From: Candidatus Izemoplasma sp. | GTDB taxonomy: Bacteria; Bacillota_I; Bacilli_A; Izemoplasmatales; Izemoplasmataceae | DNA: 35,918 bases | Reading direction: 5' to 3' | Assembly (NCBI GenBank): GCA_007117835.1 | Contig: SKFU01000042.1 | Location: 1-35,918, forward strand | Part shown: piece after piece, positions 20,788 through 34,987 of the stretch | Numbering within the stretch: the first letter of the stretch is position 1 | How the letters are laid out: every line of letters starts with the position of its first letter | The notes under the pieces: generated by a model | Database searches by the model: none | Told to the model about the DNA's origin: nothing | Seen by the model: only the letters and a program-made list of their open reading frames with translations | Made by a program: the position numbers and the translations under genes

Positions 20788-20829
20788 AATTCTATCTATG
20801 GTTCAAGTCGTTAAGAGAGGAAAGTGCTG

Positions 20830-21315
20830 ATGAGTCAAGACAATGCGATGAAAAGTATTATGTCAAAAGCAATTTGTCAAGCAAGAAATACGATGAACGA
20901 TAATATTGGAGGTCCGTTTGGGGCTGCTGTGATGGACGCTGATGGGAATCTTGTTGCCGTTGCATCAAACTCTGTACTTAATGATCACGACCCAACCGCT
21001 CACGCTGAAATTAACGCAATCAGAAAAGCAGGAAAAATACTGGGTACCCACGATTTATCTGGATGCACAGTCATTACGACTGCATTTCCGTGTCCAATGT
21101 GTTTGAGTGCCATCATTTGGGCTAATGTTAAAGAAGTCATCTATGGTGCACGTTCTAAAGATGCTGATGCGATTGGTTTTAGAGATCAATTTATTTACGA
21201 TTTAATTCGTGGTGGCTTTAAAGATCAACGCATTTTAAAACTTGATGAAGCCTACCGAGATGAGTGTTTAACTTTATTTAAAGAGTACAAGGAAAAGAAT
21301 AAACAATTGTATTAA
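20830..21315 (+). CDS. guaD: Guanine deaminase
   Basis: 161 residues of the cytidine-deaminase fold. The zinc site is visible as HAEINAIRKA (His and catalytic Glu) and PCPMCLSAIIWAN (two Cys). The flanking IGGPFGAAV and DQFIYDLI segments agree with B. subtilis GuaD rather than with tRNA adenosine deaminase TadA. It converts guanine to xanthine and ammonia. The ATG at 20830 sits 9 bases after GAGAGG; the GTG at 20824 in the same frame is too close to that site. Its own promoter precedes it, and it converges on the purine operon, which would consume the xanthine formed. Confidence 0.9.
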   Translation: MSQDNAMKSIMSKAICQARNTMNDNIGGPFGAAVMDADGNLVAVASNSVLNDHDPTAHAEINAIRKAGKILGTHDLSGCTVITTAFPCPMCLSAIIWANVKEVIYGARSKDADAIGFRDQFIYDLIRGGFKDQRILKLDEAYRDECLTLFKEYKEKNKQLY

Positions 21316-21355: not shown

Positions 21356-22339
21356 TTATTTGTCCCCCATGGTCATTGCCATGACAGCTTTAGCGGTGTG
21401 TAAACGATTTTCGGCTTCTTGATAAACAATTGAATGCGGTCCATCAATGACAGCGTCGTCAACTTCGTTACCACGATCGGCTGGCAACGCATGCATATAA
21501 TACACTTTTGGTTTACCAAGTTTGATCATCGCCTCAGTACATTTCCAATCACGGTATGATTCCAATAAATTATCAATCACTTGTTCGCTAGGGTTGGTTA
21601 CCCAACTACCCCAGTTTTTCGGAATGACAATGTCAGCATCTTTGTATGCTTGGGCCATGTTATGGGTAATTGTGAGTGACCCACCATTGGCTTTTGCATT
21701 TTCGTGTGCTTTTTCAATGACCCATTCTGGCAAGTCATAACCCTCAGGGTATGCCAGTGTTACATCAATCCCGTATCGTGGGAATAATAAAACTTGCGTG
21801 ACGGGAACACTGATTGGTTTTTTATGACTTTTTGCGTAAGCCCAGATAATTGAAACTTTTAGATTTTTGGTGTCCCCACAAACCTCTTGAATTGTCATTA
21901 AGTCGGCGAGTCCTTGCATCGGATGATACAAATCACATTGCAAGTTCATGATTGGGACTGTGGCATGTTCTGCCATTGCACGAAGATAGTGATTGCCGAT
22001 GCCCCAGTTACAAATTCGACAGGCGATGCCATGACCATAACTTGATAAAATCACGGCGGTATCTTTAGGACTTTCTCCGTGAGCTATTTGCATGGTTGAG
22101 GTGTCTAAGAATGTGGCATGGCCGCCAAGTTGTGCAAGGCCAGATTCCATGGAGTTACGGGTGCGTGTTGATTGTTCAAAAAACATAAGAAATGCTGTTT
22201 TATGGTCAAGATACGGTGTCGGACGATTGTTTAAAAAATCGTCTTTTAATTTTTTAGATACTTCTAACAGTGTGTCAATTTCTTCTTTGTTCCATTCTTC
22301 TAATGTGATGAAATGTTTGCCTTTATAAAGTGGTTTCAT
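21356..22339 (-). CDS. ygeW: YgeW-type carbamoyltransferase
   Basis: 327 residues of the aspartate/ornithine carbamoyltransferase superfamily. The carbamoyl-phosphate box STRTRNS is at 57-63, followed by HPMQGLADLMT and, near the C-terminus, HALPADRGNEVDD. The long insertion ICNWGIGNHYLRAMAEHATVPIMNLQCD and neighbouring genes point to YgeW (knotted carbamoyltransferase) rather than to OTC. It is thought to act on a ureido intermediate of purine breakdown, giving carbamoyl phosphate that can make ATP. E. coli YgeW is longer (about 396), mainly at the N-terminus. The ATG at 22339 has AAGGAGA seven bases upstream; a GTG at 22345 touches the ribosome site and was rejected. It is the last gene of the operon. 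Confidence 0.9.
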   Translation of the reverse strand: MKPLYKGKHFITLEEWNKEEIDTLLEVSKKLKDDFLNNRPTPYLDHKTAFLMFFEQSTRTRNSMESGLAQLGGHATFLDTSTMQIAHGESPKDTAVILSSYGHGIACRICNWGIGNHYLRAMAEHATVPIMNLQCDLYHPMQGLADLMTIQEVCGDTKNLKVSIIWAYAKSHKKPISVPVTQVLLFPRYGIDVTLAYPEGYDLPEWVIEKAHENAKANGGSLTITHNMAQAYKDADIVIPKNWGSWVTNPSEQVIDNLLESYRDWKCTEAMIKLGKPKVYYMHALPADRGNEVDDAVIDGPHSIVYQEAENRLHTAKAVMAMTMGDK

Positions 22340-22350
22340 GGACACTCTCC

Positions 22351-23562
22351 TTATTTTTTTAGTGTGTTTAAGTACATTAGTGGTAGTGCGGCATAAAATG
22401 CGGTCGCGGTAATTAGCTCGGTTTTGAAAGTGACTTCGTTGGGTGCGTGCGCTTGATCTTCATGACCAGGACCAAAACCGATACATGGAATGTTGTATCG
22501 TCCCATGATTGAGACGGCATTGGTTGAAAAAGTCCATTTATCGACTAACGGTTCTTTGTTAAAAAGCTGTTTAAAAGTATCGACACTGCTTTGACATACA
22601 ATATGGTCTTCTGGCAATACCCATGTTGGAAAATAAGCATCGGTTGGGTATATTAAACCGGTGTATGACGGGCGCTCATAAGTATACATTTCAACGGTTG
22701 CTTGTGCTTTTTTTACAGAATCTAAGTGACGAATTTCAGCCAAGGCACTTTGAAAGGTTTCGCCATGGGTTAATCGTCGATCAATAGATATATGACACCC
22801 ATCGGCCACGGCACAACGTGAAGGTGAACTGTAAAAGATTTCACTGACTGTAAGTGTGCCTTTTCCTAAAAATGGATCGTCGCCTAAATGCTGATTGAGT
22901 TGTTCTAACTCGATTAAAATTGGTGCCATTTTGAAAATGGCGTTATCACCACGTTCTGGTGCACTACCATGACAACTAATGCCTGCGGTTGTTACTTTGA
23001 TTTCCATTCGGCCACGGTGACCGCGATAAATGTTGCATGAGGTTGGTTCGGTAATGACAACAAATTCTGGTTTAAGTTTGACTTCTTCAATTAAATATTG
23101 CCAACACAAACCATCGCAGTCTTCTTCTTGTACAGTGCCCGTGATGAGCAGGGTGTAATCATCTTCAAGTCCAAGTGTTTTAATGATTTTACCAGCATAA
23201 ACCATTGAAGCCATGCCACCTTCTTGATCACTGCCACCTCGACCACCGATAACCTCAGCATCTTCCATGCCTTTATACGGATCAAACTTCCATTGTTTAA
23301 TGTCTCCGATACCGACGGTATCAATGTGTGCGTCCATGGCAATCACGTGATTGCCATGACCGATACGGCCAATGATGTTTCCCATTGGATCAATCATAAT
23401 TTCGTCGAATCCAACTTTTTCCATTTCTTCTTTAATTCTTAAGACGACTTTTTCTTCATCGCAAGATTCACTAGGAATCGCAATCATATCACGTAAAAAT
23501 TGATTCATTTCAGGTGCAAATTGTTGGGCTAGTTTGAGAATTTCTGTGAATGGAATTTTCAT
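22351..23562 (-). CDS. ygeY: YgeY-type M20 metallohydrolase
   Basis: 403 residues of the M20/ArgE/DapE peptidase family. Metal-binding motifs are DAHIDTVG (about 77-84), [10 protein letters not shown] (bridging Asp) and [10 protein letters not shown] (catalytic Glu pair), with the dimerisation-domain signature [16 protein letters not shown] and a late His in EDQAHAPNE. This set matches the YgeY family linked to purine and selenium-dependent hydroxylase loci; it would hydrolyse an amide or ureido bond in an acyclic purine-derived intermediate. The ATG overlaps the stop of the preceding PLP enzyme (ATGA), and 11 bases separate its stop from ygeW. Confidence 0.93.
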
Positions 23563-24923
23563 ATTTGTTCCTTTCTAAGCGTTTTAATCGTCGTGTTATA
23601 GTATTCAACTTTCTGATACGCTTCTTCCCAAAAAGCAGGGTCTTTCATAGCATCTAAATAACTTTTTTTATACCCGAACTTAAGCCAATCCGACTCTTTT
23701 TGTTTGAATAATTGTTCTTTACTTAATGCGTCTTTAACCGGTTTAATATCGGCGGTGTCCATGCCTTTAAATGTTGCATCAAACCATTGTGATAGCACCG
23801 CATGATTGATCGTTTTTTCACGTTTTTCTAAATCAATTAAAACACTGTCGTAACGATCAAACCCATCAGTAGCCATCGTTACAATATTGTCTGCGTCAGT
23901 TAGCTTAAGTTTTTTTGCCATTTTTATTGAGGCTAAAATATTGCAAATACCTGACACACCGAACATGTCTTTTAATGCCATCGCAGTGTCATGGTCAATA
24001 CCGTTTTCTTTGAGTATTTCTAATCCATCATAAATTACCTTTAACCCTTTAACAGAGTCATCATCTTTGATAAGTACCAAATAGTCTGTATTAAGCACAT
24101 TGTGAATTAGTGTACACATTTTGTCGCCGATACCCTCAATTTTATGTTGACCACGACCACCATTCATCAGTGTTGAACACTCATAAGGTTCAACTGCGGC
24201 GATTTCACATTCGTTGAACTTTGTTTTTAAGTGGTCACCAGCTGCAAGTGTTCCAGCACTGCCTGGTGCAGAAACAAACAATCGTACCCGTTCATTACCA
24301 ATCCCCTTGACTGCTGAGATTGCGCTGTGACCTGTGACATGACGGTGAAAGCGGTAATTCGGCATAAGCTCAAACTGAGCCAGTGCGTAATACTTAGGGT
24401 TTTTCATAAGTTTATGGGTTTTTTCTAGGGTTAAAATAACATCTGATTCAGTGCCAGGCGTTAACATCAGTTGACCGCCGTAATCTTTAATTCTTTTGTA
24501 GCGCTCAGCGCTCATGTTATCGGGCATGATAACGATTGATGGCATCTTAAGTAAATGACTGATGTAAGTAACCCCAATCCCAAAATTACCGGTAGACGGC
24601 CCTAAAATCGTATGTTTTTCTGGGTCGATTAGACCATCAATATAGCCTTCAATCATGGTCGCATAGGCTGGACCAACTTTGTGTGATCCTGAGGGAAAAT
24701 GTTTGCCTAACATGACAATTATATTGGCATCGACGCCTGTCAGTGCTTTAGGTAAAAGCACTTTATGAACATCAGTACCGTTAGGTTTCCATGTGATATT
24801 AAATAAATTGTTTGGATCGAATTCATCGTGCTTAGCGAGTTCTCTAGCTTTTTGGTATTTTTCTTCTAGTTGCATCGGGTTGAGCATTTCATCGTAATTG
24901 GGTCCTATTTTCATTGATTTCAT
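23559..24923 (-). CDS. Fold-type II PLP-dependent lyase of purine loci (YgeX position)
   Basis: 454 residues of the tryptophan-synthase-beta/cysteine-synthase fold. The PLP lysine is probably the Lys of [14 protein letters not shown] (about residue 82), the substrate-loop motif is [13 protein letters not shown] and the phosphate-binding Gly-rich loop is [13 protein letters not shown]. It is not a close copy of E. coli YgeX (diaminopropionate ammonia-lyase, about 398 residues with a FGLNAFKMLGG lysine box) but occupies the ygeX place beside ygeY and ygeW. A deaminating lyase acting on a 2,3-diaminopropionate-like fragment is the working guess. The ATG follows AAGGAGAG and overlaps the upstream gene by four bases. 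Confidence 0.82.
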
Positions 24924-26164
24924 GTTTTTCTCTCCTTGTTCAACCGCTGTTTAATCGCAGTCAGTGATGGTGCGATACTATGTTTTTCTTGAATCAATTT
25001 CATGGCGTTTTTAGGATCTTTAAGTCCGTTCCCAGTAATAATGAGTGTCACCGATTCATTGGCACTAATTATTTTTTTATTTAATGCCTCAAGCAGTCCA
25101 GCCAGAGATGCCGCAGCGGCAGGTTCTGCAAAAACACCTTGGGCAGAGCCCAATTGCGCCATACTTTCTAAAATTGCCTGATCGCTGACTTTAAGCCAAT
25201 GACCTTTTGAGTTTTTTACCGCATTGAGTGCTTTAATTGGGTTTCTCGGCACCCCCACTGAAATGCTGTCAGCAATGGTGTTTTCTTTGGTAATTTTTAA
25301 GGAACTTTGGGTGTCAAATGCATCAACAAATGGACTGCATCCTTCACTTTGAACGCCAAGTAATTTAGGAATTTTATCGATGAGCCCACACTGTTTCATG
25401 TCATAAAACCCTTTATAAACACCGGCAATAGTGCACCCATCACCAACAGAAACAATCACCCAATCGGTTGGTTTGAAGTCAAGTTGTTCGGCAATCTCAT
25501 AGGCAACTGTTTTTTTACCTTCAACCAAATGTGGATTGATGGCCGCATTGCGATTATACCAACCAAAATGGGCAATCGCTTGTTTAGATAGTTCGTAAGT
25601 GGCTTGGTAATCACCATCGACTTGGAAAATAGTTGCGCCATATATCGATAATTGCATGCGTTTGCCATCGGGGATGCGTTTAGGGACAAAAATCATTGTT
25701 TTAAGACCCACTTTTGCAGCATTACCTGCCAGACTCGTGGCGGCATTGCCTGTTGAACTGCAGGCCACGATCGTTTGGTTGGCGTCACAGGCTTTGATGA
25801 CTGCAACAACAGATGCCCGGTCTTTTAAAGACCCTGTCGGGTTAAGACTGTCATCTTTTAAATACAGTGTTTTAAGCTTGATTAATTTGGCAATGTTATC
25901 GGCTTTGTGCATGGGTGTCCAACCCACGTGTAGGGTATCAATGTTATGTTTATTAGCAACACTCATCATTGGCTTATAACGCCAAATGGAATAATCTTTG
26001 TTGGTGTTAAAGTAGTGTTTATCAATTGTTTGACGCATGGCGTGATAATCGTATTCGATATCAAGTATGCCCAGTTCTAAACAATCGTCACAATGCATTA
26101 ACGTATCATCGAGGTGATAGGTCTTATTGCATCGTGTACAGCGGGCTTGCTTAACGTACTGCAT
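24920..26164 (-). CDS. Threonine-synthase-like PLP enzyme with N-terminal zinc ribbon
   Basis: 414 residues. A zinc ribbon opens the protein (CTRCNKTY and CDDC, about residues 9-31). The fold-type II core contains GWTPMHKA, the PLP lysine in NPTGSLKDRAS (about 115), CSSTGNAATSLAG, and the phosphate loop VSVGDGCTIAGV. These match short threonine synthases, which make threonine from O-phosphohomoserine. No other threonine genes are near, and the gene is embedded in the purine operon, so it may act instead on an amino-acid fragment from purine breakdown. It starts on the last base of the adenine deaminase stop (TAATG), with GAGGTG upstream. Confidence 0.82.
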   Translation of the reverse strand: MQYVKQARCTRCNKTYHLDDTLMHCDDCLELGILDIEYDYHAMRQTIDKHYFNTNKDYSIWRYKPMMSVANKHNIDTLHVGWTPMHKADNIAKLIKLKTLYLKDDSLNPTGSLKDRASVVAVIKACDANQTIVACSSTGNAATSLAGNAAKVGLKTMIFVPKRIPDGKRMQLSIYGATIFQVDGDYQATYELSKQAIAHFGWYNRNAAINPHLVEGKKTVAYEIAEQLDFKPTDWVIVSVGDGCTIAGVYKGFYDMKQCGLIDKIPKLLGVQSEGCSPFVDAFDTQSSLKITKENTIADSISVGVPRNPIKALNAVKNSKGHWLKVSDQAILESMAQLGSAQGVFAEPAAAASLAGLLEALNKKIISANESVTLIITGNGLKDPKNAMKLIQEKHSIAPSLTAIKQRLNKERKT

Positions 26165-27882
26165 TAAGTCACCTCTTCTTCTATTGGTACGATTTTGAAC
26201 TCAGTGACATCAAACAATCCTGTGTCTGTAAGCTTAAGTTTTGGAATCACTGGCAATGATAAAAATGCAAGCGTGATGAATGGGTCATCAATGGCTGGAT
26301 TTAAACCCATTTTTTCAATTGCTTGTGCCATTTGTTTAAGCATTTCTGAGACTTCGTGTGGGTCACGGTTGGTCATAATACCACTGATTTCTAAAGGCAT
26401 TTTACTGGCTATTTTTTGGTTGTGAATTACCACGATACCACCTTGCATCTCATACAAAGTTTTTATGGCTAAGTGCATGGCATCATCAGTGTCACCGATC
26501 ACAATAATATTGTGAGAATCATGCGCGATACTTAATGCAATTGCCCCGTTTTTAATGCCGTAACCTTCAACCAAGCCAAGACCAACATTACCGGTGTTTT
26601 TGTGTCGTTCTATGACGGCGAGTTTTAAGATGTCTTGTTTGGGATTATTGTGATAAAAGCCATCTTTGATCAACACGTTACGAATAAGTTTTTCTGTGGT
26701 AATGTTATTTTCAATGAGGCCGATGACTTTGACGGTGTCACGGGTTAATGCCAATCTTAAATCGATTGTTTTAGGGTCAATGTGGACAGTGTTTTTAACC
26801 GCAGAATCGTCATGGCATTGAACACTAAACAATGGTTTTTGGTTTTCTGCGACAAGCACCCCGTCTTTGAACACCAAATGCGGTTCGATGTTTTTAAGTG
26901 AATCAAATACAATCAAATCTGCGCGATAATTGGGTGCGACGGCACCAATTTGTTTGAGTTGATAACATTGTGCAATGTTGATGGTGGCCATACGAATTGC
27001 CATAATTGGTTCAATACCTGCTTGAATTGCGACGTTAACATTCCAGTTGATATGGCCTTCTTTTTCAATATCTTCTGGATGTTTGTCATCGGTACAAAAC
27101 AGTAAGCGGTGATGATTGAGTGGTGTGATGCCATTCAATAGTGTTTTTAAATTCCGGGTTGCTGAGCCTTCTCTTAAATGAACATACATGCCACGTTTAA
27201 CACGTTCTTTGAGTGAGGCAAGTTGTGTGCATTCGTGATCTGTTTGAACACCAGCAGTGATGTAGGCGTTTAGTGATTTAGCGAGAATGTCGGGGGCGTG
27301 GCCATCAATCGTTAATGGCTGCATCGTTTTTATTTTTTGGTGGATACTTGCCTCGCCTTCTAGTACCGCAACATAGTCCATCACTTCTCCTAAACCAATG
27401 ACTTGCGGGTATTTCTTAAGGTAATTAATGTCTTCTAAGGTGATTGTCGCACCAGCATTTTCAAATGCTGTCGCAGGCACACATGATGGGGCCATGATAA
27501 AGACATTTAAAGGAATGTTTTGACTGCTTTTAATCATGAACTCAATCCCTTTAACACCACTAACATTGGCAATTTCATGGGGGTCTGCAATAATGGTTGT
27601 GGTGCCTTTAGGAACCACGAGTTTGGCAAATGCAGGTGGGGTAACCATGGATGATTCGATATGGACATGGCCATCGATAAAGCCTGGTGCAACATAAGCA
27701 TGATTGAGATCGATTGTTTCTTTGCCTTGATAATCACCGATACCAACAATTATGCCATCTTCAATGGCAATATCATTAAGCTCAATATCGCCGGTAAACA
27801 CGTTAATGATCTGTGCATTTTTGAGTACTAGTGTTGCCGGTAGTTCACCCTTAGCGATGCGCATCATAGTTTGAGCATTCAT
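26164..27882 (-). CDS. ade: Adenine deaminase
   Basis: 572 residues, the standard length of the Ade family. The amidohydrolase metal site is seen as GFIDGHVHIESSM (about 70), the loop TTTIIADPHEIANV, and LLFCTDDKHPEDI; the C-terminal domain has ALSIAHDSHNIIVIG and ends with the ITNRDPHE-like box MTNRDPHEVSEM. It converts adenine to hypoxanthine and ammonia with a di-metal centre. It follows the FAD subunit gene with an ATGA overlap, the ribosome site AAAGGAGG lying in that gene. Its product is a direct substrate for the neighbouring Mo-hydroxylase. Confidence 0.95.
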   Translation of the reverse strand: MNAQTMMRIAKGELPATLVLKNAQIINVFTGDIELNDIAIEDGIIVGIGDYQGKETIDLNHAYVAPGFIDGHVHIESSMVTPPAFAKLVVPKGTTTIIADPHEIANVSGVKGIEFMIKSSQNIPLNVFIMAPSCVPATAFENAGATITLEDINYLKKYPQVIGLGEVMDYVAVLEGEASIHQKIKTMQPLTIDGHAPDILAKSLNAYITAGVQTDHECTQLASLKERVKRGMYVHLREGSATRNLKTLLNGITPLNHHRLLFCTDDKHPEDIEKEGHINWNVNVAIQAGIEPIMAIRMATINIAQCYQLKQIGAVAPNYRADLIVFDSLKNIEPHLVFKDGVLVAENQKPLFSVQCHDDSAVKNTVHIDPKTIDLRLALTRDTVKVIGLIENNITTEKLIRNVLIKDGFYHNNPKQDILKLAVIERHKNTGNVGLGLVEGYGIKNGAIALSIAHDSHNIIVIGDTDDAMHLAIKTLYEMQGGIVVIHNQKIASKMPLEISGIMTNRDPHEVSEMLKQMAQAIEKMGLNPAIDDPFITLAFLSLPVIPKLKLTDTGLFDVTEFKIVPIEEEVT

Positions 27883-28739
27883 GGTCTACTTGCCTCCTTT
27901 ATAATATGATTGATAAAATCAGCAATAAGGTTTAGTGCGACTTGTTTACGGTAGACACGGTTAGACCGTTGGTCATCGATGGGTTGGATGTAAGGCGCGT
28001 AAGCGGCTTGAAGTTGCTCGATTTTAGTGCTTAAGTCATTGATATTCAACCCAATAATCATGTTTTCAATGTCACGCTGGCGGACGATTGTTGCACTGAC
28101 TGCGCCAAACGCCATACGAATATCAGTCAGTGTATTGTTGTTAATCTTATATGTCCCAGCAAATGATATTTTGGCGATTGCGTCGGCACGTCTGCCGCCA
28201 ACTTTCTGATAGTAATGTCCAGATTCATCGTGTTTAGGAATGATAATTTGCGTAAGAAGCTCATCGGCGCGAATACCCGTTTTTTTGGGTCCGGTAATGC
28301 ATTCACTCAACCGTATTTTACGCGAATTTTGATGACTTTGTAGTACCACTTCTGTATCCCACAAGTAAAGCGGGACAAGTGCATCTCCGGCGGGGCTTGC
28401 ATTGACAATATTTCCCGCTAAAGTCGCGACATATCGAAGGGCTGGTGAGGCCATTTCTAAAATCACTTTCCTTAGTAATGGTGGGACTAAGGCATGACTA
28501 TTTAACGTTTCTAGTGGCGTCATTGATTGAATGATGATTGCCGCATCATTACTGCTTATACCTTGGAGTGCTTTTAGGTTCATAATATACATCACATGCG
28601 CTTTAAATCGTGGTGATAAGTCGCTATGATTACGATATTGTATCATTGCATCTGTGCCACCACCAATGATTTGGTATGGGTGTTTAGATAGTGCTTCAAG
28701 TGCTTCATTTAAAGTGTTTGGTATTAAATGTTTTACCAT
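27879..28739 (-). CDS. FAD-binding subunit of a xanthine dehydrogenase-type Mo-hydroxylase
   Basis: 286 residues of the CoxM/XdhB family. FAD-pyrophosphate contacts are visible as IIGGGTDAM (about 24-32) and TLAGNIVNASPAGD (about 106-119), and YYQKVGGRRADAIAKIS marks the middle of the domain. It passes electrons from the [2Fe-2S] subunit to NAD or another acceptor. The ATG overlaps the FeS subunit gene by seven bases and the 3' end overlaps ade by four. Symbols xdhB and xdhC are used differently between species, so none is given here. Confidence 0.94.
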   Translation of the reverse strand: MVKHLIPNTLNEALEALSKHPYQIIGGGTDAMIQYRNHSDLSPRFKAHVMYIMNLKALQGISSNDAAIIIQSMTPLETLNSHALVPPLLRKVILEMASPALRYVATLAGNIVNASPAGDALVPLYLWDTEVVLQSHQNSRKIRLSECITGPKKTGIRADELLTQIIIPKHDESGHYYQKVGGRRADAIAKISFAGTYKINNNTLTDIRMAFGAVSATIVRQRDIENMIIGLNINDLSTKIEQLQAAYAPYIQPIDDQRSNRVYRKQVALNLIADFINHIIKEASRP

Positions 28740-29209
28740 AAGCCTTCACCACGCTTTGCGGCGCTTTGAATGGCTTTAACAATCATGTTATACCCAGTAC
28801 AACGGCAGAGATTTCCGCTGATGCCAATGCGTATTTGGGCGTCTGTGGGTGCAGGGTTTTGATTTAATAGGCTTTCTGCGGCTAGAATCATACCGGGTGT
28901 ACAAATACCGCATTGGACTGCGCCTGCCTCAGCAAAACTGTTGGATAAAACATCAAAACGTGCTGTTTTTGCGTACCCTTCGATGGTCATGATAGAACGT
29001 TTATGAACCGACGCAAGGGGTAAACAACAACTGTTGGTAATGTGACCATCAAGCAATATGGCACAAGCACCACATTCGCCTTCACCGCAACCTTCTTTGG
29101 ATCCTTTTAGGTTGAAGTCTTTGCGTAAGACATCAAGCAAACGACGGCTTGGGTCAGTCTTAATAGTTTGTTCAGTGCCATTCAACATAAATTTAATGGT
29201 CATCATCAT
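28733..29209 (-). CDS. Iron-sulfur subunit of the Mo-hydroxylase (two [2Fe-2S])
   Basis: 158 residues, usual size for the CoxS/small subunit. The plant-type [2Fe-2S] site is GCGEGECGACAILLDG with a later Cys in SCCLPL; the second, helical site is QCGICTPGM with CRCTGY. Both are intact. The start is one of three successive ATG codons at 29209-29201; GGAG lies seven bases before the first. The gene overlaps the molybdenum subunit gene by 17 bases. Confidence 0.95.
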   Translation of the reverse strand: MMMTIKFMLNGTEQTIKTDPSRRLLDVLRKDFNLKGSKEGCGEGECGACAILLDGHITNSCCLPLASVHKRSIMTIEGYAKTARFDVLSNSFAEAGAVQCGICTPGMILAAESLLNQNPAPTDAQIRIGISGNLCRCTGYNMIVKAIQSAAKRGEGLW

Positions 29210-31292
29210 GCATCAACTCCATTATATATTCTGGTGTTGCGGGAATTTTCTTGATTGGTTTTTTAATTGCCATTTCAATCGCCATTGCGACTGCAGGTGC
29301 ACCACCCACTAAGGTCAGTTCACCAGCACCTTTGGCCCCATATGGTCCCAACGCAAATGGGTTATCATACAAGTGGGTTTGGGTCGGTGCCATATCGACG
29401 GCGGTGGGAATAATATAGTCGGTCATATTTTTTTGTTTGAGTTGCCCTTGTTCGTGAACCATGACTTCTAAATAACCATAGGCAACACCTTGTGCTGTGC
29501 CACCATCGGCTTGCCCAAGGACAATCGTTTCATCGAGTGCTTTGCCAACATCATAAACACTCCATATACCGATAATATTGACTTGATACGTGATTGGTGA
29601 TACCTCGACTTCAACAATATTTACGCCCCAAGAATACGCTGGGTAAGCATCTCCTTGGAATGTTTTTTCATCCCAAACAATCCATTCGGGTTGTTTATAA
29701 CGTTTTATGACTTCTAGTGGTGTTTTTGATTGCCACAGTGATTTCATTTCTAAAGCGGCTTGATTCACTAGACCACCAACAATCATCGCCGTTCTAGAGG
29801 CAACGGTTGGCCCTGAATCAGGCACATCGTCGGTATCAGGGTAATCAAAATGTACCTGTTCAATCGGGATTTCTAGTGTGTGTGATACGATTTTAATGAG
29901 TGTTGTTTTTGCACCTTGTCCCATATCAACAGCCGCAACTAAAATATACACGTGATCGTGATCGTCTTTTCTTAATTTCACTTGTGCATTGATGTGGGTT
30001 GATTCACCACTACCTGTAAAGCCACAGCCATGCAAGAAATAACTCATGCCAATCCCACGGTTTGGCATGGTTTTATACGCTTTAACTTTGTCGTGAAACT
30101 GAGCCATTTCAGTGGCTTTTTGGATCATTTTAGGCATGATGATAGGGTCTCTAAAGAGCCCAGAGGTTGAGGTTTGATCCCCTTGTTTTGCAAGATATTG
30201 CATTCTAAAACTGTAGGGGTCTTGGTTTAATTGTTTGGCCAGATGATGCATAAACATTTCGATCGCAAAAATCATTTGCGGCGCACCAAAGCCTCTGAAT
30301 GCACCATTGGGTACGGTGTTTGTCTTAAAAACGTCACCTGAAACAGCCAAGTGCTTAATCGTATATGCATTTGTAACAGCGATCAGCGCTCTTGATAAAA
30401 CCACGCCACTTAAGCCGATATATGCACCGCCATCGAGGGCAACTTTAGCACGAATACCAACAATGTTATTATCGGCATCGATGGCCGCTTCCATTGTTGT
30501 TTTTGAGGGGTGACGTTTGGTTGTTACACTCATGTCTTCTTCGCGCTCAAAGATCAATTTAATCGGTTTTTGGGTTTTACGGATAGCAATCGCAAGTTGA
30601 CAGGCAATGAGTGATGGGTATTCTTCTTTGCCACCAAAAGCACCGCCTACAGCGGCTTGGATTACACGCACATTATCTGGGTGTGTATCCAAGGCAGAAA
30701 CGACTGCGTTTTTTACGTAATATAGACATTGAACTGAGCCAATCAGTGTGACTTTTTCAGCAGTTTCTGGGTAACCAATAAATCCTTGTGGTTCAATGTA
30801 TGCTTGTTCCTGATACCCAGTTTCATAGGTTTCTTTAATAATCTTTTTAGCCTGTTTAAAAACCGGATCTGGATTGCCTTTTGTGAACTGGTAGTCAATG
30901 ACGCTTTTTTGATAGGAAAAGAGGGGTTCTAACGGTTGTATATCACAGATAATTTTATCATGGATATCATATAAAACACGTTTGTCTTCACCCACGATTA
31001 ACGCGATCGGTTCACCGATGTGTTCAACAGTATCTTCGGCGAATATTTTCCAATCTTCAAATATCATTTTTACGAAGTTTTTACCCGGAATATCCCGATA
31101 ATCGATAATCGTATAGCCTGACGGTAGCGGTGGGTAATGAATGGCTTTAATGATGCCTTTTGCGATGGGTGAACGTAAAGTAATGGCGTGAAGCATGCCC
31201 TTTATATCAATGTCACCGACATACTGTGCTTTACCTTGCATCCGCGCATGCGCATCAAGTTTATGGATGGATTGGCTGATGTCTTTATGCAT
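29193..31292 (-). CDS. Molybdenum-binding large subunit of xanthine dehydrogenase-type hydroxylase
   Basis: 699 residues of the xanthine oxidase/CoxL family. Cofactor and active-site motifs are in order: GGAFGGKEE (about 215), NGAFRGFGAPQ with the Arg typical of purine hydroxylases (about 333), DMGQGAKT and, near the C-terminus, GAKGAGELTLVGG carrying the catalytic Glu. With the two small subunits it should oxidise hypoxanthine to xanthine, or act in the reducing direction on urate. It is shorter than E. coli XdhD (about 956) and XdhA (about 752). Selenium, if used, would be a labile ligand, and no in-frame TGA is present. AGGAGG lies five bases before the ATG. Confidence 0.95.
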   Translation of the reverse strand: MHKDISQSIHKLDAHARMQGKAQYVGDIDIKGMLHAITLRSPIAKGIIKAIHYPPLPSGYTIIDYRDIPGKNFVKMIFEDWKIFAEDTVEHIGEPIALIVGEDKRVLYDIHDKIICDIQPLEPLFSYQKSVIDYQFTKGNPDPVFKQAKKIIKETYETGYQEQAYIEPQGFIGYPETAEKVTLIGSVQCLYYVKNAVVSALDTHPDNVRVIQAAVGGAFGGKEEYPSLIACQLAIAIRKTQKPIKLIFEREEDMSVTTKRHPSKTTMEAAIDADNNIVGIRAKVALDGGAYIGLSGVVLSRALIAVTNAYTIKHLAVSGDVFKTNTVPNGAFRGFGAPQMIFAIEMFMHHLAKQLNQDPYSFRMQYLAKQGDQTSTSGLFRDPIIMPKMIQKATEMAQFHDKVKAYKTMPNRGIGMSYFLHGCGFTGSGESTHINAQVKLRKDDHDHVYILVAAVDMGQGAKTTLIKIVSHTLEIPIEQVHFDYPDTDDVPDSGPTVASRTAMIVGGLVNQAALEMKSLWQSKTPLEVIKRYKQPEWIVWDEKTFQGDAYPAYSWGVNIVEVEVSPITYQVNIIGIWSVYDVGKALDETIVLGQADGGTAQGVAYGYLEVMVHEQGQLKQKNMTDYIIPTAVDMAPTQTHLYDNPFALGPYGAKGAGELTLVGGAPAVAMAIEMAIKKPIKKIPATPEYIMELMHDDDH

Positions 31293-31301
31293 AGAGACCT
31301 C

Positions 31302-32378
31302 CTATTCCATGATGATTGCTTGTTTTGGACATTTTGATACGCACAGTCCACATTGAAAGCATTTGTCATCATTGAATGTGATGTGGGTAGTAAAATCAAT
31401 GGCGAAATAAGGACATACTTGTTTACAAATCATACACTCAATACATTTTTCTTTAATTAAAGTTGGTGTGTTTGCTTCGTACACAACGGATTTATCTAGG
31501 TGGGTATCAATCACAGATTGCACAGATTCAAAGCCGTATTTATCCAATGATTTTGGCAGTTCAGTCAGTATTTTTTGGTATAAATCTTTGCCTTTAATCA
31601 ATGCACCTGTCAACATTTGTACGGCACTTGCACCCGCAAGTAAAAACTCGATAACGTCATCGGCTGTGGTGATGCCTCCAACTCCAATGATGGTTAAATC
31701 AGGTTCTGCTTGTTTAATTTTATAGACAGTGGCTAAAGCCACAGGTTTTATTGCTGGGCCACTCATCCACACAAATCCTTGATCGTTACCATAAACAATT
31801 TTGCGGGTTGCAATGTCGATACGCATTGCTGGTCCAAGTGAGTTGATGGCAACAATGCCATTCGCACCGGCATCTTTAATTGTTTTTGCAAATGCTTCGG
31901 GGTTGGGTATATGGGGACTAATTTTCATATAGATGGGTTTATCTGTGTTTTCACGAATTGTTTTTACAGTGTTTTCGATGACTGATAAATCGGTGCCAAC
32001 ATAGTGTGTTGATATCTCGAAAGCGTCTGCGAATGGATCGAGTAAAGGAATTAAAAACGCCATGTCTTCTTTCGTGTAACCCACACTCACAATTAGGGGT
32101 CTGTCTTTGATTTTTTGGTGTGCTGGCAATATCTCTTTAATCCATGTTTGATATGGTATTTCGCTCCACAGTTCTGAGTTCATTGCAAATGTTTTGTCGC
32201 CGTAAATGCATGGTTTCGGAATTTCTGGTAATGCTTTGGATATCGTTTTTGTGACCACTGCGCCACAGCCACTGTCTTGTATGAATGCCAGTTTTTCAGC
32301 ATCACCGACAATGGGTCCAGATGCTGGCATCAGTGGGTTGTTGAGTTGAATGCCATTAATGGTGGTTTTAAGTGTCAT
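31302..32378 (-). CDS. PreA-like flavin/4Fe-4S protein (dihydroorotate dehydrogenase fold)
   Basis: 358 residues. The first 290 form an FMN-binding TIM barrel of the DHOD/dihydropyrimidine dehydrogenase type (NNPLMPASGPIVGD, YMKISPHIPN, IGVGGITTADDVIEFLLAGASAVQM). The C-terminus carries two 4Fe-4S motifs, CIECMICKQVCP and CFQCGLCVSKCP. This is the build of the PreA subunit of dihydropyrimidine dehydrogenase, but no PreT partner is in the window. In this locus it may reduce a purine or uracil-like ring, a role given in E. coli-type clusters to YgfK, whose N-terminal half I recall as related. The start at 32378 has GAAGGTG upstream; the reading from 32423 lies inside ssnA. It overlaps ssnA by 11 bases. 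Confidence 0.88.
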   Translation of the reverse strand: MTLKTTINGIQLNNPLMPASGPIVGDAEKLAFIQDSGCGAVVTKTISKALPEIPKPCIYGDKTFAMNSELWSEIPYQTWIKEILPAHQKIKDRPLIVSVGYTKEDMAFLIPLLDPFADAFEISTHYVGTDLSVIENTVKTIRENTDKPIYMKISPHIPNPEAFAKTIKDAGANGIVAINSLGPAMRIDIATRKIVYGNDQGFVWMSGPAIKPVALATVYKIKQAEPDLTIIGVGGITTADDVIEFLLAGASAVQMLTGALIKGKDLYQKILTELPKSLDKYGFESVQSVIDTHLDKSVVYEANTPTLIKEKCIECMICKQVCPYFAIDFTTHITFNDDKCFQCGLCVSKCPKQAIIME

Positions 32379-33684
32379 TTTTGTCACCTTCTTTTTCAAG
32401 TTTTTGCCATAATGTTTTGGCACTATGTTGGGCTTTTTTGTAAGCCAACTCTAAATTTTCATCAACGCGGTATTGCTGTACGCGTTTTTTGCCTTTAATC
32501 CAAACATCGCTTGGTTTAAAACTTTGAAATAAACCGAAAAATACATGCCCGAATGCATTGGTATCCTTTATTGGGGTTGGTGGGACATACGGGATGCTAA
32601 GGATGTCGGCTTGGAATCCCGGTTGAAGTTGTCCTAAGCGTGTGCCAAATAAACGACTCGCATAATTATAGGTGTTAATGATGATTTTACGTAAGTCATC
32701 CAAACCAAATACGGTCGGTGATTGGGTCTTTAAATGCATTGCGTAATATAGCATTAAGTACTCGGTGGTCATTGCCGATGAAATACCATCATTGCCAAGA
32801 ATTAACGGGATGTCTTTTTCGATGAACTTCATCACATCAGGCAACCCAACCGCATTGTTCATGTTAGACGTTACATTCAGTGCCACTTGAACTTGGTGTT
32901 TTTTCATTAAATCAAGTTCTTGATCGTTGACATACAATGCATGCACTAAAATACTGTTAGGGTTTAACAATCCATGGCGTGCTAAGCGGTGAACCACTGG
33001 TTCGTGATATTTTTGGATGCTGTCTTCTTGGTCCATTTGACTTTCTGCAACATGCATGTGAATGGGGATGGTGCCAAGTACTTTTTTAACATTTTTAAGT
33101 GTCTCTTCAGAAAGACTCATTGATGCATGTAGACCAAATAAACCGCGACTTTCAGATGTTTTATTTTTTTCAAAGAAGTCTACATTTTCTTTAATGCATT
33201 GAGTAATGTTAAAACGATCACTGGTTTCAAAGGCAAATGCACCGCGTAAGCCTACCGTATCGACCACGGCACGCTTAAGTGCATTGAGTGTGCCGACGAT
33301 GTCGGTGCCTGAGGCATGGTGATCAATCATCGTCGTAATGCCGTTTTTTACGGCATCTGTTGCACTGACGATACCGCTATGATAAACCATGTCTTTATCC
33401 AATGCCCGATCGATTCGCCACCATAACTGATCTAGTATTTCTTGAAAATTATGGGGATTAAACTCAAGCGCTAACCCACGGGCGAATGTAGAATAGATAT
33501 GGGTGTGTCCAGCGATTAACCCTGGCATAATTAAATGGTCTTTAGCATCATAAATTGTGTCGCTTGCTCGGGCTTTAAAATCATGCATATCCCCGATGTC
33601 TTGGATTGTTTGATTGAAGCGGATGTATGCGTTTTTCTTTAGTGTTTGAAAATCATACAGTGTCGCGTTGATTAATACGTTCAT
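32368..33684 (-). CDS. ssnA: SsnA-type aminohydrolase
   Basis: 438 residues of the amidohydrolase superfamily (SsnA/AtzA-TrzN-guanine deaminase branch). Metal ligands are seen in AGHTHIYSTFARGL, the IPIHMHVAES strand, LVHALYV and GNDGISSAM (Asp). SsnA is one of the conserved genes of anaerobic purine/urate loci and is expected to deaminate or open a purine-derived compound. The ATG at 33684 (second of two adjacent ATG codons) lies 7 bases after AAAGGAGG; the longer reading from 33756 runs through that ribosome site inside hyuA and adds 24 residues that look untranslated. It overlaps hyuA by 32 bases. Confidence 0.9.
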   Translation of the reverse strand: MNVLINATLYDFQTLKKNAYIRFNQTIQDIGDMHDFKARASDTIYDAKDHLIMPGLIAGHTHIYSTFARGLALEFNPHNFQEILDQLWWRIDRALDKDMVYHSGIVSATDAVKNGITTMIDHHASGTDIVGTLNALKRAVVDTVGLRGAFAFETSDRFNITQCIKENVDFFEKNKTSESRGLFGLHASMSLSEETLKNVKKVLGTIPIHMHVAESQMDQEDSIQKYHEPVVHRLARHGLLNPNSILVHALYVNDQELDLMKKHQVQVALNVTSNMNNAVGLPDVMKFIEKDIPLILGNDGISSAMTTEYLMLYYAMHLKTQSPTVFGLDDLRKIIINTYNYASRLFGTRLGQLQPGFQADILSIPYVPPTPIKDTNAFGHVFFGLFQSFKPSDVWIKGKKRVQQYRVDENLELAYKKAQHSAKTLWQKLEKEGDKNDT

Positions 33685-34987
33685 CATCAAACCTCCTTTG
33701 AATGTATTTTCCCTGACCACCAATAAATCTGCCATTGCGCATGACAAATTTCCCACGGATCATGGTTGATGTGACTTTCCCATGCATTGGCTGATTGAGA
33801 TACAAACTGTAATCGGCTTGGCCGTGGTGTTTTTTAAAGACAGTATTGGGTTGTGGCTGATAGATGAACAAATCAGCATCATAGCCTGGCTTGATTTGGC
33901 CTTTGTTTTTAATGCCGTGAAGTGCAGCAACGGATTTGGTCATCTTCTCGATGACAACCTCACCAAATAAATGACGCATCAAAGGAAACGAAAACTCAAT
34001 CGAACCGATACCTAAAGGGATGTCTTTTAGTAACGGCTGTTGTTTATCTTTTTGATTGAATGCACAATGATCGGTGCCAATTGCATCAATAAATTTAAAC
34101 TGTTTGGTTAGCGCGTTACTTTCTGCTTTGCTTCTTAATGGTGGTGCACAGGTGTATAAATACCCATTGGGATGTTTTAAGACATTGTCAGAAAAATTGA
34201 AGTACTGTGGACAGCTTTCAAGAAAAAAGTGGGTGTTTAATAGATGGGCATAATGTTCACGTAGTTTGGTGATGGTTTTTCCACTACTGACATGGACCAT
34301 GTATAGATAGCCTTGTGTCTTTTCAATCAGTTGCGCAATTGTTAAGGCCGCATCGACTTCACTTGATGTTGGACGACTTTTAGGTAAATCTTTTGCGGTA
34401 AACAAAGGATTAAGATTAATTTGTTTGTCGTCTTCAATGTGCGCAAGCAATAAGAACTGTTTTGTTTTAGTTGCTTGTAACAATTGTTCAATCGCTAAAT
34501 ACTCTGTATTACGGTTGGACTCTGAATACGTTGTGAATAGTTTTAAAGTCGATATGCCGAGTGATTTAAAGGTATCAACATAGTCATTCAAATCGTCTTT
34601 TGGTTGTGCAATTGTGGCATGAAAACCATAATCGCAGACCGATGATTGTGCGTCGTTTAACCGTTCAACAAATGACTTTTCAAGTGCTTTTATGGTGTCT
34701 GTGGGCGATAAGAAATCAATCACTGTTGTGATGCCACCATAGACCGCAGCTTTTGAACCGGATTTAAACGTATCAACTGACTTAAACCGACCGAGATCCA
34801 ACGCAAAATGCACGTGAGGATCAATGATACCAGGAATGATTTCCTGATTGTTTACATCAATCACTTGACGTGCTTTTTTGGTTTCTAAAGACAGTTCAGC
34901 GATGGTCTCATCTTGTATGTAAACGTTGGCCCGAATGAACTGTTTATCGACATAGACTTTGCCATTAATTAATGCCACATCATACAT
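33653..34987 (-). CDS. hyuA: Dihydropyrimidinase/hydantoinase-like cyclic amidohydrolase (HyuA)
   Basis: 444 residues. The di-zinc cyclic amidohydrolase motifs are GIIDPHVHFALDLG (about 54-67), the probable carboxylated Lys in STLKLFTTYSE (about 148), LLAHIEDD (about 180), MVHVSSGKT (about 235) and IGTDHCAF (about 300). It matches the D-hydantoinase/dihydropyrimidinase family and the YgeZ/HyuA member of purine loci, which would open a hydantoin- or dihydropyrimidine-like ring derived from the purine. The ATG follows AAGGGTG at 7 bases. It lies 12 bases after the NTPase gene; the last 32 bases double as the ribosome site and start of ssnA. Confidence 0.9.
   Translation of the reverse strand: MYDVALINGKVYVDKQFIRANVYIQDETIAELSLETKKARQVIDVNNQEIIPGIIDPHVHFALDLGRFKSVDTFKSGSKAAVYGGITTVIDFLSPTDTIKALEKSFVERLNDAQSSVCDYGFHATIAQPKDDLNDYVDTFKSLGISTLKLFTTYSESNRNTEYLAIEQLLQATKTKQFLLLAHIEDDKQINLNPLFTAKDLPKSRPTSSEVDAALTIAQLIEKTQGYLYMVHVSSGKTITKLREHYAHLLNTHFFLESCPQYFNFSDNVLKHPNGYLYTCAPPLRSKAESNALTKQFKFIDAIGTDHCAFNQKDKQQPLLKDIPLGIGSIEFSFPLMRHLFGEVVIEKMTKSVAALHGIKNKGQIKPGYDADLFIYQPQPNTVFKKHHGQADYSLYLNQPMHGKVTSTMIRGKFVMRNGRFIGGQGKYIQRRFDDERINQRDTV

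Follow-up and report, generated by a model that had tools for sequence, protein, structure and literature searches.

The window, i.e., the whole stretch of 35,918 nucleotides analysed here, is the entire contig C62 of a 1.36-Mb, 91% complete Candidatus Izemoplasma genome (G000). In the direction of transcription, it encodes an XdhC-type factor cut at the contig end, an NTPase, hyuA, ssnA, a gene designated here uacX, xdhA, xdhC, xdhB, ade, a threonine-synthase-like gene, ygeX, ygeY and ygeW (Table 1). The 358-residue protein which the first-pass annotation had noticed next to ssnA was found where it had been placed; its gene is on the minus strand, with an ATG at 32378 and a stop codon at 31302–31304, while the plus strand of 31302–32378 is rich in stops. 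Its neighbours were also as described, with SsnA (NF005540, 375 bits) upstream and the Mo-hydroxylase trimer downstream. The first 11 nt of uacX are shared with the end of ssnA, and the uacX stop lies 9 nt short of xdhA; GAAGGTG precedes the uacX ATG and AGGAGG the xdhA start. Such short spacings, together with a good ribosome-binding site for each start, indicate that ssnA, uacX and xdhA are tightly coupled.

Table 1. Features of the purine cluster in the window and of the UacX protein (positions in the window)
Feature	Position	Strand	Basis
XdhC-type maturation factor, C-terminal part, cut by the contig end	35445..35915	-	
hyuA, dihydropyrimidinase/hydantoinase family	33653..34987	-	
ssnA, true start probably about 33687; 3' end overlaps the uacX start	32368..33756	-	
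uacX, FMN-barrel / 2x[4Fe-4S] protein, putative yanthine reductase	31302..32378	-	ORF, domains, tree, alignment
DHO_dh (PF01180) barrel of UacX, residues 3–278	31545..32372	-	Pfam match
KPCI...NSELWSE motif of UacX, residues 55–73	32160..32216	-	Alignment
S-x-H-Y-V-G of UacX, residues 123–128, replacing the N-x-S-C-P catalytic-cysteine loop of PreA/PyrD	31995..32012	-	
Two [4Fe-4S] motifs of UacX, CxxCxxCxxxCP, residues 312–350	31329..31445	-	Fer4 and alignment
xdhA, divergent-type Mo-hydroxylase large subunit, without the insert bearing the E. coli XdhD Glu606 equivalent	29193..31292	-	
xdhC, [2Fe-2S] subunit	28733..29209	-	
xdhB, FAD subunit	27879..28739	-	
ade, adenine deaminase	26164..27882	-	601 bits, cut-off 472.5
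Threonine-synthase-like PLP enzyme, kept in related clusters	24920..26164	-	
ygeX-type PLP enzyme	23559..24923	-	PALP fold; adjoins ygeY in related clusters
ygeY, M20 peptidase family	22351..23562	-	Domain match; homologues in relatives
ygeW, carbamoyltransferase	21356..22345	-	Domain match

Domain searches of UacX gave a DHO_dh match (PF01180, 136 bits against a cut-off of 27, residues 3–278) and two Fer4 matches near the C-terminus; the [4Fe-4S] motifs are thus present and an FAD/NAD(P)H domain is absent. The cluster cysteines (C312, C315, C318, C322, C340, C343, C346 and C350) are invariant in 30 of 30 aligned UacX relatives, and the conserved residues of the DHOD family (K44, N67, K152, N179 and G234-G235) are retained. 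An AF2 model made with five sequences (pTM 0.68) confirmed the barrel only, with pLDDT below 50 in the active-site loops and the Fe-S domain, and the pocket arguments below do not use it; a fold search with this model led to DHODB and DPD. A contig search with UacX as query returned only Izemoplasmatales relatives and two Fe-S-only matches, the nearest named relatives being Candidatus Izimaplasma MAGs and the Mycoplasmatota strain zrk2. Within the order, UacX occurs in roughly half of 90 genomes, with 60–75% identity over nearly the full length, and the arrangement ssnA-uacX-xdhA was found in every relative inspected.

The first-pass annotation had seen no large YgfK-like fusion at the locus and proposed that the small protein stands in for it as a minimal ring reductase. 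The absence of YgfK extends to the whole 91% complete genome, where TIGR03315 matched only an NfnB-like protein. Complementarity was searched in 392 genomes of the class with a UacX profile (five sequences), TIGR03315 for YgfK and TIGR03314 for SsnA. The ssnA gene was present in 28 of them, which share ancestry and do not stand for 28 independent events, and each had exactly one of the two reductases, UacX in 22 and YgfK in 6 (five above the cut-off and one cut by a contig end). Among the 392 genomes, none had both UacX and YgfK, no ssnA genome had neither, and neither reductase occurred without ssnA. The UacX matches in the 22 genomes all exceeded 550 bits, with the next best at 135. Moreover, one genome of the same order (G002) has the arrangement hyuA-ssnA-ygfK-xdhA-xdhC-xdhB-ade-(threonine-synthase-like)-ygeX-ygeY (locus L155), in which a YgfK of 1008 aa fills the exact uacX slot between the order's own ssnA and xdhA. 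In the SsnA tree, the G002 SsnA is nested with those of two UacX-carrying congeners (SH-aLRT 98 and 99), the SsnA of the Cetobacterium UacX cluster falls among those of YgfK clusters, and at least three changes of state between UacX and YgfK are forced. The in-place swap and this tree together indicate that UacX and YgfK are exchangeable parts. With the biochemistry of the Clostridioides difficile enzyme (Li et al., 2025; PMC12507026), these results strongly support a substitution of UacX for YgfK, as had been proposed.

In C. difficile, the replacement of YgfK has been named UacX, a PF01180 protein without an FAD domain, and together with reduced methyl viologen and SsnA it converted yanthine to ureidomethyl-hydantoin; ferredoxin was proposed as its donor (Li et al., 2025; PMC12507026, Fig. 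2d-f). We therefore consider, with a probability of roughly 0.85, that the protein of the window is UacX and that it acts in the reductive, anaerobic breakdown of uric acid, where it would reduce yanthine (2,8-dioxopurine) with FMN as cofactor and ferredoxin as donor; the substrate and the donor are inferred. Gene context and a Cetobacterium somerae homologue connect the protein with the C. difficile UacX that was assayed (Q181U4); the homologue is 39% identical, lies in a C. difficile-like cluster and groups with UacX in the tree (99/97), albeit on a long branch. The C. somerae cluster itself (L105; NZ_CP092520.1, 548465–577538) is carried by a fusobacterial plasmid of 0.7 Mb; it is a complete uric acid cluster of the C. 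difficile kind and includes the D-aminoacylase UacY. Its UacX is annotated just as a "4Fe-4S binding protein". Reduced ferredoxin would pass electrons to the two C-terminal [4Fe-4S] clusters of UacX and from there to the FMN in the barrel, where the pyrimidine ring of yanthine would be reduced and the aromaticity of the purine ring broken; the unstable dihydro product would then be drawn onward by SsnA, the product of the overlapping gene.

The two systems share the DHO_dh barrel, the lack of an FAD domain, the replacement of YgfK within an ssnA uricolytic cluster and the proposed dependence on ferredoxin. They differ in the host, an Izemoplasmatales member in our case, in YgeW taking the place of UacY and in the threonine-synthase-like gene; moreover, here there are two Mo-hydroxylases with FAD subunits, whereas XdhD of C. 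difficile has none. In comparison, the E. coli YgfK occupies the same pathway slot, but it is a fusion of 1032 aa with an FAD/NAD(P)H module (PF07992, PF14691), absent from the 358-aa UacX, and its barrel is too diverged for the PF01180 match that UacX gives. Both the name and the assay of the family date from 2025; the main additions made here are the natural swap and a motif test.

The absence of a PreT flavoprotein, noticed before at the locus, also holds across the 91% complete genome, where the lone strong related flavoprotein is GltD/NfnB-like (L042) and adjoins an NfnA/PyrK-like FAD subunit, the two probably forming an NfnAB pair. Considered as a hidden PreT, the GltD-like protein of 473 aa (contig C8) was rejected: its neighbour is an NfnA/PyrK-like FAD subunit and it looks like NfnB. 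The genome encodes pyruvate:ferredoxin oxidoreductase (PFOR; 1727 bits, cut-off 911) and a 56-residue 2[4Fe-4S] ferredoxin (75.6 bits, cut-off 65), so ferredoxin is available and would be the simplest donor. By analogy to PydAc, and in view of the PFOR, ferredoxin and probable NfnAB genes, reduced ferredoxin rather than NADH is likely the donor of UacX. PydAc is a ferredoxin-dependent dihydropyrimidine dehydrogenase accepting electrons from ferredoxin or methyl viologen (PMC7332683); like UacX, it combines an FMN barrel and an Fe-S domain without an FAD/NADPH domain, but it reduces uracil, and it has two ferredoxin domains in C. chromiireducens and a single one in the C. pasteurianum type, where the second is separate. 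A hidden NADH route to UacX may also exist. Since the hydroxylases of these clusters have FAD subunits, unlike the C. difficile XdhD, NADH-linked electron delivery is likely elsewhere in the pathway.

The first-pass annotation had left the donor open and suggested direct coupling to the FAD subunit of the hydroxylase; ferredoxin is now the better supported donor, and no evidence for such coupling was found. A yanthine reductase fed by the FAD or FeS subunit of the adjacent XdhABC instead of by free ferredoxin, in an internal redox loop, would fit the constant adjacency of xdhA and the presence of the FAD subunit gene xdhB in the operon. It is nevertheless very improbable. In G002, a YgfK with its own FAD/NAD(P)H module occupies the same slot beside the same xdhA, hence this adjacency is independent of UacX. 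Moreover, methyl viologen suffices as donor for UacX of C. difficile in the absence of a hydroxylase (PMC12507026), and PydAc accepts ferredoxin (PMC7332683).

The label "PreA-like" given earlier to the protein did not survive the comparison of families. In an unrooted tree with flagged long branches, UacX (99/97), PreA (100/99) and PyrD1B (100/96) form three separate monophyletic groups, the order of which cannot be read, and the UacX-PyrD grouping is not interpreted. The active sites differ in the alignment. HYVG occurs in 30 of 30 UacX and in none of the 13 PreA and 9 PyrD sequences, while SC[PS] is found in all 13 PreA and all 9 PyrD but in none of the 30 UacX, the loop at residues 123–128 of UacX being about 11–12 residues shorter than in PreA. 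The S-C-P/S cysteine of PreA and PyrD is, as we take it, the residue mutated in the DPD C671 structures.

A dihydropyrimidine dehydrogenase (PreA/PydAc) reducing uracil or thymine and located by chance in a purine operon would explain the DHOD barrel with two [4Fe-4S] motifs, as in PreA and PydAc, and DNA-degrading hosts meet pyrimidines too. Yet the score of 149.8 bits is below half of the curated PreA cut-off (335), the protein falls outside the PreA clade and lacks the SCP cysteine in 30 of 30 sequences, there is no PreT in the genome, and UacX co-occurs one to one with ssnA. Furthermore, relatives (the f9 genomes) hold UacX plus a separate PreA and PreT pair elsewhere in the genome. The NAD-dependent E. 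coli PreA/PreT resembles UacX in the DHOD barrel and the C-terminal 2x[4Fe-4S], but PreA keeps the cysteine loop and requires PreT, and we regard this explanation as very unlikely. It is scarcely credible that the gene, whether recruited to the cluster or merely lying within it, encodes PyrD type 1B, the dihydroorotate dehydrogenase of the cell: PyrD1B, a biosynthetic enzyme with PyrK as partner, gives the closest barrel by HMM score (187 and 184 bits) and by fold, DHODB being among the structure matches, and the genome has no other PyrD1B, but these scores stay below the curated cut-offs of 269–270, the catalytic SCP cysteine of PyrD1B is missing from UacX, which has an extra Fe-S domain, no pyrE is present in G000 (33.7 bits, cut-off 106.8), and four genomes (G020, G068, G045 and G027) carry UacX and a separate PyrD1B.

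UacX shares several motifs with the N-terminal half of YgfK. Invariant in UacX and absent from PreA and PyrD are C57, W71, Y101 and H125; the corresponding places in YgfK read PCI, N-x-E-W-S-T-E, S-(V/I/L)-G-Y and S-T-x-H. For C57 and W71, the conservation is complete in 30 of 30 UacX and 6 of 6 YgfK sequences (PCI and N-x-E-W-S-T-E). Slightly further along, YgfK retains a cysteine in H-G-C-P-P, which may correspond to the lost one. An HH comparison with six YgfK sequences matched the N-terminal half of YgfK to UacX with 93.5% probability, compared to 1.6% for PreA and 0.4% for PyrD1B; with a single YgfK sequence, the match was weak (27%). We hypothesize that C57 and/or H125 replace the lost cysteine in the active site, and that one of them may be the proton donor. 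A broader proposal, which we hold tentatively and at somewhat less than even odds, is that the DHOD superfamily contains a branch of purine reductases, made up of UacX together with the FMN half of YgfK. This branch would have lost the cysteine loop and gained the shared PCI / N-E-WS-E / SVGY / S-x-H pocket, it would protonate its bicyclic substrate through another residue, C57 or H125, and its small, ferredoxin-fed and large, NAD(P)H-fed forms would have been swapped between otherwise unchanged operons. The motifs common to UacX and YgfK provide a sequence test separating purine reductases from PreA and PyrD, and the natural swap makes the choice of donor, ferredoxin or NAD(P)H, directly testable.

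A ygfK gene just outside the window was also sought, using another contig of the genome (C91) and the loci of relatives. None was found, and a second Mo-hydroxylase, XdhD-like, lies there instead. The start of C91 encodes the missing N-terminal part of the XdhC-type factor, followed by the XdhD-like hydroxylase, FeS and FAD subunits and mocA, while in more complete relatives the region past the window end holds the XdhC-type factor, a small membrane protein, the XdhD-like Mo-hydroxylase, its FeS and FAD subunits and mocA. One locus hence carries two different Mo-hydroxylases, xdhA of the window and the XdhD-like L179 (C91:1039–3345), the latter with 36% identity to E. coli XdhD. In E. coli XdhD, Glu606 was linked to yanthine formation (Li et al., 2025; PMC12507026). 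Its equivalent is present in the XdhD-like hydroxylase of C91 and of the relatives, whereas the site is deleted in the XdhA of the window and also missing from E. coli XdhA. This distribution suggests that the enzyme encoded upstream, the XdhD-like one, makes yanthine, while XdhABC of the window would perform another purine hydroxylation. The small membrane protein, in strain zrk29 a hydrophobic protein of 212 aa between the XdhD-like gene and that of the XdhC-type factor (L044:8165–8803), had no Pfam or NCBIfam match and is possibly a transporter for the pathway.

These Izemoplasmatales loci have been noticed before as "xanthine-degradation loci" (Wasmund et al., 2021; PMC8289736), and in Hujiaoplasma nucleasis zrk29 the cluster HF295_00920–01005 was upregulated on DNA/RNA (PMC10470597). 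From position and gene count, we infer that this zrk29 cluster, whose last three genes were read only in relatives of the strain, is the present locus. UacX extends the newly solved reductive uric-acid pathway to the wall-less, DNA-degrading Izemoplasmatales, and the "xanthine-degradation loci" likely represent a route by which the purines of nucleic acids are turned into pyruvate, ammonia and carbamoyl phosphate. Within this route, the ygeX-type enzyme would act as 2,3-diaminopropionate ammonia-lyase.

Several further genes accompany the cluster. The threonine-synthase-like PLP gene, not among the pathway enzymes of Li et al. (2025; PMC12507026), is constant in these uricolytic clusters, where it adjoins ygeX/ygeY, and it occurs with 44% identity in the YgfK-type clusters of another family (L156–L158). 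An NTPase of 158 aa (PF03266; 35000–35476, minus strand), located between the XdhC-type factor and hyuA, recurs in most of the Izemoplasmatales clusters read and is possibly a molybdenum-cofactor or maturation helper. At the other end, a small nucleoside/guanine-deaminase-like protein is encoded at 20824–21315 on the plus strand, convergent with ygeW, and its gene recurs at the same cluster end in some relatives (L046, L085 and L088).
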